Source of the DNA: a virus
Length of the DNA: 64,000 bases
Reading direction: 5' to 3' (one strand)
IMG/VR virus record: IMGVR_UViG_3300037852_000102
Coordinates: 1-64,000 of that record
Both the position numbers and the translations under genes were made by a program. Shown here piece after piece: positions 2,998 through 8,963 of this stretch; within the stretch, counting starts at the first letter, position 1, and every line of letters starts with the position of its first letter. The notes below the pieces were generated by a model that saw nothing but the letters and a program-made list of their open reading frames with translations, was not told the origin of the DNA and ran no database searches.

Positions 2998-3548
2998 TGG
3001 GTCGCGCTATCGTCGCTCAATTCCACAAGAGCAAGGGCGGTCGACTGACACTATGGTCTCTCGTTGTCATTGAAGAAAAAAAGGACCGCGACGGAAGTGT
3101 TTGGCTGGAGCGAGATATTTATGATGTCGATCTGTCGCGAAAGTATGGCTACCTTTACCATATGTCCGGCAGCGGCGGATCAGCCCCCGTCGAAGTTGAT
3201 TGTCTCTATTTCGCTAGTGGCGACGTGGAGATCAAGGAGACGCCATGCATGCTTTGCGAGCGCTCCAAGACAACCAAACGATGGAAAACGCGAGAGATAC
3301 GCGCACTCAATAAGACCCGTCGCCTCCGCATGCTGCCGAAAGCCTTCCGCCTTGAAGATGGTGGTGATCTCTTAGAGTGGCTGGAGGTTAATGGCATCAA
3401 TCAGGATTCGGTCTATTGCTCCGAATGTCGAGATTGCATGCCGTCTGATTCGCTCTGCGAGCATTGCTGGTGGTGCGACAATACTGGATGGTATTCGACA
3501 CCGAGCGACCGATGCGAATGCAAAGACCGCGAGGAATGCTATGGGTAG
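2997..3548 (+). CDS. Cysteine-rich phage protein
   Basis: 183 residues. The first half is beta-rich (LWSLVVIEEKK...); the second half holds many cysteines: CMLCERSK, CSECRDCMP, CEHCWWCDNTGWY and a final CECKDREEC. The spacing suggests at least two zinc-binding clusters. ATG overlaps the previous stop (TGATG) and the gene overlaps the next by 8 bases. No family recognised; a nucleic-acid or protein-binding zinc protein is the natural guess. Confidence 0.65.
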   Translation: MGRAIVAQFHKSKGGRLTLWSLVVIEEKKDRDGSVWLERDIYDVDLSRKYGYLYHMSGSGGSAPVEVDCLYFASGDVEIKETPCMLCERSKTTKRWKTREIRALNKTRRLRMLPKAFRLEDGGDLLEWLEVNGINQDSVYCSECRDCMPSDSLCEHCWWCDNTGWYSTPSDRCECKDREECYG

Positions 3549-5460: not shown

Positions 5461-5634
5461 ATGCCCCGCCGCCCCACCCCACTCGTCCACCGGATCGACG
5501 CCGCGCTGGCGGATGGCGAATTGACACCAACCAAAAATCATGTAGCGTTACCCAATTCGCGGCGATCAACGCGACAGAAGCGGCACCCCTCACGAACTTC
5601 TTCGCGTCCGGTGTCGCAGAAATGTGACCCCTGA
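5461..5634 (+). CDS. Short basic ORF, 57 residues
   Basis: Begins three bases after the previous stop and fills the gap before the RAMP-like gene. The product is highly basic with many Arg/Ser (SRRSTRQKRHPSRTSSRP). No convincing Shine-Dalgarno is present, so it may be leader sequence rather than a gene. Confidence 0.3.
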   Translation: MPRRPTPLVHRIDAALADGELTPTKNHVALPNSRRSTRQKRHPSRTSSRPVSQKCDP

Positions 5635-5677: not shown

Positions 5678-6286
5678 ATGGCGAAGGCGCAAGTTATCCA
5701 AATCTCTGAACCGACCAACGGCGGCAAAGAGGCAATCGACTATTCGCAGCCCTACGCGGTTGCGGTGACCCTTCAAGGGTCCGCCGACTTCCTGTTTCAT
5801 CGCTGGAACGCCGAGGCGGTAGACGAAAAGGCCAAGAGCGCGAAAAATTCCAAGGCCAAAAAGACCGATGATATCGAGAGCTACGTTTACAGAACTGACA
5901 ACGGCGAACTGGCGATTCCCGGCGAATATCTCCGTGGTTCGATCATTCACGCTGCCAAGTTTCGGCAAGACCCGCGCTCGCCGCGCAAGTCGGCGATGGA
6001 CCTCTTCAAGGCCGCTATCGTCGTCACGACGCCACTCGCCAGCCTCGGCGTCATTGATTGGGACTATCTCGACAAACGCCGCGTGATGATCCAGCGGCAG
6101 GGCATCAACCGCGTGCGACCTGCGATGCGTGCTGGATGGAAAGCGGAATTTCATCTGACGGTTTTGCTGCCAGAATACGTCGATCAAAACGCGCTGCGCG
6201 AGACTATCGAATCGGCTGGCCGCTTGATCGGCGTCGGCGATTTTCGCCCGACGTTCGGGAGATTTGGCATTGTGAAATTTGAATAA
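5678..6286 (+). CDS. Phage protein with RAMP/Cas7-like signatures
   Basis: 202 residues; ATG follows AAGGAG. What is visible: an N-terminal strand (AVAVTLQGSADFLFHRW), a Lys-rich loop (EKAKSAKNSKAKKTDD), a central IPGEYLRGSIIHAAK, a strand WKAEFHLTVLLPEY, a helix, then GRLIGVGDFRPTFGRFGIVKF. The IPGxxLRGS-type motif and a final glycine-rich turn after a ferredoxin-like beta-alpha-beta recall RAMP proteins of the Cas7/Csm3 type (IPGSSLKG and G-x-G loop). Relatives occur in other proteobacterial phages as uncharacterised proteins. The Cas7-like assignment is my inference from motifs. The stop codon is followed with no gap by the GGYNN pentamer array, so the two are almost certainly co-transcribed. 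No cas genes are nearby. Confidence 0.6.
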   Translation: MAKAQVIQISEPTNGGKEAIDYSQPYAVAVTLQGSADFLFHRWNAEAVDEKAKSAKNSKAKKTDDIESYVYRTDNGELAIPGEYLRGSIIHAAKFRQDPRSPRKSAMDLFKAAIVVTTPLASLGVIDWDYLDKRRVMIQRQGINRVRPAMRAGWKAEFHLTVLLPEYVDQNALRETIESAGRLIGVGDFRPTFGRFGIVKFE

Positions 6287-6649
6287 GGCACGGCCTGCCG
6301 AGGCTGGGTAAGGCGCGGTGGGGTTTTGTTGGGTTAGGTGTGGCAAGGCACGGTTTGGCTGTCTCTGGATAGGCAAGCCGTGGTTCGGATCGGCGAGGCA
6401 TGGCATCGGCGTGGCTAGGATAGGATAGGTGCGCTCCGGTTTGGTGTGGTTGGGTGTTGCACGGCCCGGTTAGGAACGGCGTGGCGAGGATACTTAGTCA
6501 ATTTTTTATGGCGTGGTCCGGCGTGGTTGTGTTGTGCAAGATTGGGTTAGCCACGGTCAGGTCGGGTTCGGTTTTGTAAGGCGTGGCGGGGTCCGGTCCC
6601 GTGGGATTGGGTTAGGTATGGCGCGGTTTGCTATGGTGAGGTACGGGCT
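6287..6649 (+). repeat. Pentamer-phased GGYNN array (69 units)
   Basis: Read in fives from the base after the upstream stop, the sequence is GGCAC GGCCT GCCGA GGCTG and so on. There are 24 units to 6406, one inserted C, 17 units from 6408 to 6492, a 17-base T-rich interruption (6493-6509), then 28 units from 6510 to 6649. By my count 55 of 69 units begin with GG and 62 have a pyrimidine at position 3; positions 4 and 5 look free. No unit is repeated in long runs, so this is a phased pattern rather than a simple microsatellite. The plus strand is strongly G/T-rich. No plus-strand reading frame crosses it. Confidence 0.93.
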
Positions 6650-6660
6650 TTCATGCCCGT
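6643..6660 (+). terminator. Hairpin closing the pentamer array
   Basis: ACGGGC, loop TTTCAT, GCCCGT: a perfect 6-bp stem placed exactly where the pentamer phase ends, followed by only TT. It may be a weak terminator, an RNA 3'-end stabiliser or a processing signal for an array transcript. Confidence 0.5.
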
Positions 6661-8054: not shown

Positions 8055-8963
8055 ATGTCCAAGAGCACGATTTCCACCTTCCAGCTTTTTGAAATGTTCC
8101 CGGATCAGGAATCGGCCCGGGCATACCTTGAAGGTCGCCTTTGGCCAAATGGCCCGCGTTGTCCAGTGTGCGGACTTGGCGAACGGATTACAGTTCGCAA
8201 GGAGGGCTACTATCGTTGCAACCAATGCAAGGAAGATTTCACGGTGCGCACTGGCACGATTTTCGAGCGCAGCCACGTTCCGCTGCACAAGTGGGTTTAC
8301 GCGATGTACCTGCTCGTGACGGCCCGCAAAGGCATCTCCAGCATGCAACTGGCGAAAGAGATCGGCATTACGCAAAAGTCGGCTTGGTTCGTCCTGCATC
8401 GGCTTCGCGAAGCCTGCGGCGACAAACTCGAAAAGCTGCAAGGCATCATCGAGATTGACGAAACCTATGTCGGCGGGATCGAAGCTAACAAGCATGACCA
8501 CAAGAAACTCAAGGGCGGGCGTGGTGCGGTAGGCAAAACCGCCGTCCTTGGAATGCGGGAACGTGGCGGGCGCACCGTCGCCATGTCGATTGAGGCGACC
8601 GATGCGGAAACAATTCAGGCTGCGATAGTGAATCACGTCGAAGCCGGTTCGACCATCCACACTGACGAAGCCGGTGCCTACAAGGGCATGCCCTTCGATC
8701 ATGAGACCATCAATCATTCTGAAAAAGAATATGTACGCGACGGCGTAACGACCAACTCGATTGAGAGCGTATTCGCGGTTCTCAAGCGCGGCCTGATCGG
8801 TGTCTACCACCACGCCAGCGCAAAACATCTTGATCGCTATGTCGATGAATTTGCATTCCGCTTGAATGAAGGCAACGTAAAAAATCACACCATGACGCGG
8901 CTCGATAGCTTCGTGACTGGAACGAAGGGCAAGCGCCTTACTTATAAGGGGCTGATCCAATGA
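8055..8963 (+). CDS. IS1595-family transposase
   Basis: 302 residues. N-terminal zinc ribbon CPVCG (37-40) ... CNQCKEDF (55-62), a helical region with a helix-turn-helix-like segment (SSMQLAKEIGITQKSAWFVL), then a DDE-type catalytic domain: IDETYVGG (D135), HTDEAGAY (D204) and NSIESVFAVLK (acidic or Asn residue around 234-237). This order of zinc ribbon and ISXO2-like DDE/DDN domain is that of IS1595 transposases. Full length with no frameshift, so probably active. ATG 8055 follows CAGGGG at good spacing. Confidence 0.95.
   Translation: MSKSTISTFQLFEMFPDQESARAYLEGRLWPNGPRCPVCGLGERITVRKEGYYRCNQCKEDFTVRTGTIFERSHVPLHKWVYAMYLLVTARKGISSMQLAKEIGITQKSAWFVLHRLREACGDKLEKLQGIIEIDETYVGGIEANKHDHKKLKGGRGAVGKTAVLGMRERGGRTVAMSIEATDAETIQAAIVNHVEAGSTIHTDEAGAYKGMPFDHETINHSEKEYVRDGVTTNSIESVFAVLKRGLIGVYHHASAKHLDRYVDEFAFRLNEGNVKNHTMTRLDSFVTGTKGKRLTYKGLIQ

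Follow-up and report, generated by a model that had tools for sequence, protein, structure and literature searches.

A Cas7-like RAMP gene and, starting at the base directly 3' of its stop codon, an array of 69 pentamers of the form GGYNN lie on the + strand of the window analysed here (64,000 nucleotides, positions 1 to 64,000 of the IMG/VR virus record IMGVR_UViG_3300037852_000102). The gene is termed vipr and the array units are described in terms of guides on grounds developed below. In window coordinates, the features of the locus are as follows.

5678-6286, + strand: vipr gene, 202 aa, Cas7-like RAMP by PDB profile match and fold; stop codon TAA at 6284-6286
5779-5811, - strand: site within vipr (codons SADFLFHRWNA) matched at 22/22 under skip 1 by the guide of a related locus, L154
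6287-6406, + strand: GGYNN array, run 1; 24 units, 20 with GG and 22 with Y at position 3; putatively one or two guides
6407, + strand: inserted single C that shifts the phase, seen in the sequence
6408-6487, + strand: GGYNN array, run 2; 16 units before the tail
6488-6509, + strand: putative guide tail or separator GGATACTTAGTCAATTTTTTAT, 22 bases, recurring in relatives between GGYNN blocks
6510-6579, + strand: putative 14-unit guide, NN = GT CC GT TG TG AA TG TA AC CA CG TC TT AA
6580-6649, + strand: second 14-unit stretch of the last block; probable further guide, no target found under skip 1 in IMG/VR
6643-6660, + strand: hairpin ACGGGC-TTTCAT-GCCCGT at the array end, -11.3 kcal/mol, z -2.5

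The vipr reading frame is intact and conserved. Its ATG at 5678 is preceded by a ribosome-binding site, GAAGGAG, and the GTG start listed at 5624 is unlikely. The protein is assigned to phrog_4652, a family of unknown function, and searches against Pfam and PADLOC returned no match. A profile built from 38 relatives matched a single PDB sequence, 36pp_D, annotated as 'SUSP1 Vipr protein' (E 7.4e-11), and the AlphaFold model of the protein (pLDDT 88.6), when searched with Foldseek, gave type VII Cas7 and Csm (Csm3) RAMPs as top matches (E 4e-7). Searches with tblastn linked the protein to those of Suspvirus and Felixounavirus, SUSP2 among them, with approximately 37% identity to the SUSP2 protein over 70 residues. 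Residues G181, G185, D188, R190, P191, G194, and R195 are invariant, and a glycine-rich loop, GRLIGVGDFRPTFGRF, lies close to the C-terminus. The protein is thus a small RAMP with an RRM core and a glycine-rich loop, kin to SUSP1 Vipr.

SUSP1 is the reference phage of type II VIPR (Viral Interference Programmable Repeat), a CRISPR-related phage weapon first reported in 2026 (preprint PMC13142463 = bioRxiv 2026.04.26.720920); a literature search on VIPR found no other paper. The system is composed of the phage RAMP protein Vipr and of vrRNA guides that consist of 9-16 YNNGG (GGY/NN) units and a 3' tail, with an accessory vap gene beside vipr that is typical but not universal (PMC13142463). The ribonucleoprotein reads double-stranded DNA via the NN bases, passing over one target base with each unit, and shuts off its transcription; for SUSP1 and P. 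fulva, the production of the RNAs, this skipping, and the silencing have been demonstrated (PMC13142463). Natural targets include rival phages, satellites, and other VIPR systems (PMC13142463).

A preliminary description, made from the letters of the window, had reported a 69-unit array beginning after a stop codon, in which 55 units start with GG and 62 carry C or T at position 3, interrupted by an inserted C at 6407 and a T-rich break at 6493-6509. A recount gave identical values across 6287-6649: the in-phase run at 6408-6492 comprises 17 units (15 with GG, 13 with Y at position 3) and that at 6510-6649 comprises 28 (20 with GG, 27 with Y). The phase itself is not attributable to base composition. 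A phase-chain score that allows small indels reached 138 for the array, compared with a mean of 11.3 and a maximum of 26.4 in 500 dinucleotide-preserving shuffles and with 21 for the runner-up chain within the 64 kb window. A Fourier analysis at period 5 over all 363 bases gave no signal because the two phase breaks cancel it; in windows of 120 bases, the period-5 power of the array is the maximum of the whole window, and on the + strand only. An Rfam search identified no family at the array, a blastn search of the array against a phage collection gave no match, and a hammerhead search in ten relatives found none. The terminal hairpin, which was not called by a simple terminator scan, is likely to form the 3' end of the last RNA.

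The 17-base T-rich segment, which the preliminary description took for a break, belongs to GGATACTTAGTCAATTTTTTAT and is better read as a recurring guide tail than as a defect. Close variants occur four times in L119/L118 (with a spacing of 104-123 nt in L119) and three times in L156 (64-67 nt), and the recurring tail was found in the window, L119, L118, L154, and L156. Judged by sequence, the layout in L119 and L156 is that of guide plus tail, guide plus tail. In the window, no clear tail interrupts the 40 units of the first block, and guide boundaries within the 69-unit array are marked less clearly than in L119 or L156.

The association of array and gene was examined in 140 related loci drawn from viral and bacterial genomes. 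Almost every one of the first 80 viral relatives has a GGYNN array adjoining vipr, and in 132 of the 140 loci an array lies on the strand of vipr and no more than 300 bp from it (103 upstream, 98 downstream); only four opposite-strand arrays were found within 2.5 kb in the 140 loci. The commonest length of upstream arrays is 14 units, and in the SUSP2 locus runs of 41, 11, and 14 units surround the gene. The phased pattern is therefore carried by related phages at this locus; the two outcomes that the preliminary description had named as refuting, no excess over shuffled sequence and absence of the pattern from relatives, were not observed. Separate searches for sister phages yielded three distant matches with terminase and none with Erf. 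Array size varies widely: in L030 (1544-4467), more than 500 units surround one gene, and giant arrays together with a few opposite-strand arrays lie beside the gene in L030, L164, L072, L076, and L067. In two loci (L053:3438-3502 and L066:3170-3234) a 13-unit array lies in frame within the vipr coding sequence, where it translates to an extra loop, YSAASRGTASGGKASHGEAGCGAATG, and a shorter in-frame version occurs in L080 near 3430-3450; in these three loci a guide-like array is lodged in the effector gene itself.

Across 60 aligned pairs of homologous arrays, substitutions per site at positions 1 to 5 amounted to 2.3, 3.7, 11.7, 9.2, and 9.0%, a contrast between GG and NN that is somewhat inflated because the pairs are non-independent and GG content served to recognise the arrays. 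At position 3, 132 of 168 changes were between C and T. These rates indicate that G, G, and a pyrimidine are held while NN drifts or is driven. Among 6,936 units clade-wide, G is present at position 1 in 86% and at position 2 in 77%. Tandem repeats with a conserved GGY and a hypervariable NN thus flank vipr.

To decode the arrays, 444 guide runs comprising 8,922 units were compared, with skips of 0 to 4 target bases per unit, to 1.8 Mb of related loci in which arrays had been masked. With a skip of one base, three guides scored at least 20 and up to 24, compared with a maximum of 18 for shuffled guides, and skip 1 was the sole source of scores of at least 19 outside homologous array sequence. 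A set of 2.7 Mb gave the same skip-1 picture; there, isolated shuffled guides scored 20-22, half of these being GC-skewed, so that single scores of about 18-20 without biological context are weak. Matches under skip 3 were rejected: they were chains through vipr itself and, once these were masked, the remainder fell on homologous, array-like stretches of related contigs. L154 (the same contig as L029) carries upstream a 14-unit guide that fits vipr in the window, in L116, in L122, and elsewhere at 22/22 bases, compared with 15/22 for the vipr of L154 itself. L065 has a guide that scores 20/20 on the codons for the glycine loop in several rival vipr genes and 18/20 on those of L065 itself, with at least eight consecutive units matched in more than 40 loci. 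A guide of L097 matches 30 of 32 bases a short way upstream of vipr in rivals, and that of L164 on L123 (score 18) is suggestive only. By their sequence, the best matches of the relatives' guides are thus aimed at rival vipr genes, a share that does not equate to target preference because the search set was centred on vipr. The preliminary description held that positions 4 and 5 vary freely; decoding to sensible targets indicates instead that they are guide letters. Its suggestion of periodic contacts with a filament-forming protein fares well with respect to the GG/Y phase, which is selected and adjoins a RAMP/Cas7 gene, and poorly with respect to NN, which carries information.

Three guide cores of the window were scanned against IMG/VR under skip 1. 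The core before the tail at 6488 had no match, and that of 6580-6649 had two chance-like matches and no convincing target. The core of 6510-6579 had 92 matches, mostly to leucine-type tRNA genes, and the full guide spans tRNA nucleotides -3 to +39, through the anticodon. L250 and L258 gave the top score, 27/28, each with a solitary ochre-suppressor tRNA (anticodon UUA); a tRNA with anticodon CUA (amber) in L213 follows at 26/28. Among ordinary tRNA-Leu genes, the tRNA-Leu(UAA) genes of L292 and L296 come closest, also at 26/28, and the others match at no more than 25/28. A target at 28/28 was not found in IMG/VR under skip 1, and a second scan keyed to the acceptor stem yielded nothing above 27/28. 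Lone UUA-anticodon tRNAs lie in phage contigs at L250:233-318, L258:1623-1709, and L226:2154-2239, unlike most of the other tRNA matches, which lie in large tRNA clusters. It should also be noted that in a close relative 31 tRNA genes occupy 3.5 kb (L154:12829-16335), approximately 2 kb downstream of its VIPR locus.

The target of the 6510-6579 guide is, on these matches, quite probably a leucine-type tRNA gene. We infer the owner of that target and the reason for attacking a tRNA gene: as a tentative reading, the phage may direct this VIPR guide at the nonsense-suppressor tRNA genes of its competitors and so silence them. The prospects are about even that the guide is instead aimed at an ordinary tRNA-Leu gene, of the host or of a tRNA-carrying phage and perhaps as an integration site, rather than at a suppressor. 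The mismatches of the tRNA-Leu(UAA) genes in L292 and L296 are confined to the anticodon arm, and tRNA-Leu genes are frequent attachment sites. What speaks for a suppressor is the end of the guide: its last two units, TT AA, agree throughout with the UUA anticodon loop in both 27/28 matches, and no leucine anticodon among the matches listed agrees with them in full.

Explanations that do without a working guide system are further from the observations. A structural DNA or RNA element, such as a two-tier G-quadruplex (GGN3GGN3GG) or a packaging or recombination signal with NN as mere spacers, is very improbable, even though GGN3 spacing is compatible with two-tetrad quadruplexes and the recombination genes Erf and NinB lie nearby in the genome: G-quadruplex loops demand no C or T at position 3, the NN runs decode to rival vipr and a tRNA gene under skip 1 only, and the array stands beside vipr on the same strand in 132 of 140 loci. 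That the locus is a former VIPR system in which processing of the 69 units has ceased is unlikely, if somewhat less so. Such decay would be consistent with the loss of GG in 20% of units, with the single frame-shifting C, and with the presence of one clear tail among 69 units, but vipr is intact and conserved, unit degeneracy is comparable clade-wide (86% and 77% G at positions 1 and 2 over the 6,936 units), and the 6510-6579 guide still matches its target at 27/28. A CRISPR array was also considered and rejected. The locus has no constant repeat or spacers and no cas genes, in agreement with the preliminary description that it is neither CRISPR nor a microsatellite, and PADLOC has no match for the protein. 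The sole tandem repeat found in the window is unrelated: 39.9 copies of a 9-bp unit, GCTGTTCGG, with 88% match at positions 1-359, directly before the region of an Erf-type annealing gene. Approximately 1.4 kb after the array, an IS1595-family transposase (ISXO2-like) is encoded at 8055-8963 in this phage genome; the element had no similar DNA in a plasmid collection.

Considering the array, its protein family, their association, the constraint at each position, and decoding above controls, all of them observed here, 5678-6660 is almost certainly a VIPR locus composed of a vipr gene and a vrRNA guide array. Protein family, array, and decoding agree with VIPR, as does nearly every other aspect compared, and the locus would therefore join a very recently described system. 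It shares with SUSP1 VIPR a phage-encoded RAMP homologous to SUSP1 Vipr (PDB 36pp), GGY/NN pentamer arrays that flank the gene, putative tails after guides, and skip-1 decoding to rival mobile elements that include other VIPR systems (here vipr genes, and tRNA genes in phage contigs). It differs in that its Vipr is distant in sequence, its array is long and near-continuous (69 units, with up to several hundred in relatives), and its putative tail is short and T-rich whereas that of SUSP1 is a pseudoknot. No recurrent neighbour that could represent a vap gene was found beside the vipr of the window. Ten other loci, L081 (6615-7058) among them, have a candidate vap gene, lysine-rich, whose overlap with the stop codon of vipr amounts to four bases. 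A tRNA gene target is absent from the main text of the preprint (PMC13142463). With the RAMPs of class 1 CRISPR systems (Cas7/Csm3, type VII Cas7), Vipr shares the fold and would be expected to share assembly on a guide RNA in which positions stay unpaired at regular intervals; the locus differs from those systems in its lack of repeats and spacers and of other cas genes, in its period (5 nt rather than 6 nt), and in holding information in two of every five bases.

By analogy with the published system, the array would be transcribed into one or more small guide RNAs (vrRNAs), their ends to be placed only approximately, with the T-rich 22-base segment serving as guide tail and the terminal hairpin as RNA 3' end. 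Vipr units would assemble on this RNA, each holding the invariant GGY of a pentamer, and the NN bases would be turned outward to pair with target DNA by twos, one target base being skipped per unit. Transcription of the bound target would then be silenced, a step taken from the preprint (PMC13142463). The phage would thereby turn VIPR on its competitors, with relatives' guides directed to rival vipr and the 6510-6579 guide to a leucine-type tRNA gene.

VIPR is months old and experimentally known from few systems, and the locus and its relatives provide independent, sequence-only support for the skip-1 code in another clade. That the array was spotted blind by a reader without tools indicates that the pattern can be discovered de novo. 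The clade presents a conflict of guides against guide systems with self-avoidance. In addition, tRNA genes, perhaps those of stop-codon suppressors, are suggested as natural VIPR targets; if this is true, silencing of suppressor tRNAs would strike rivals that rely on stop-codon readthrough or recoding.
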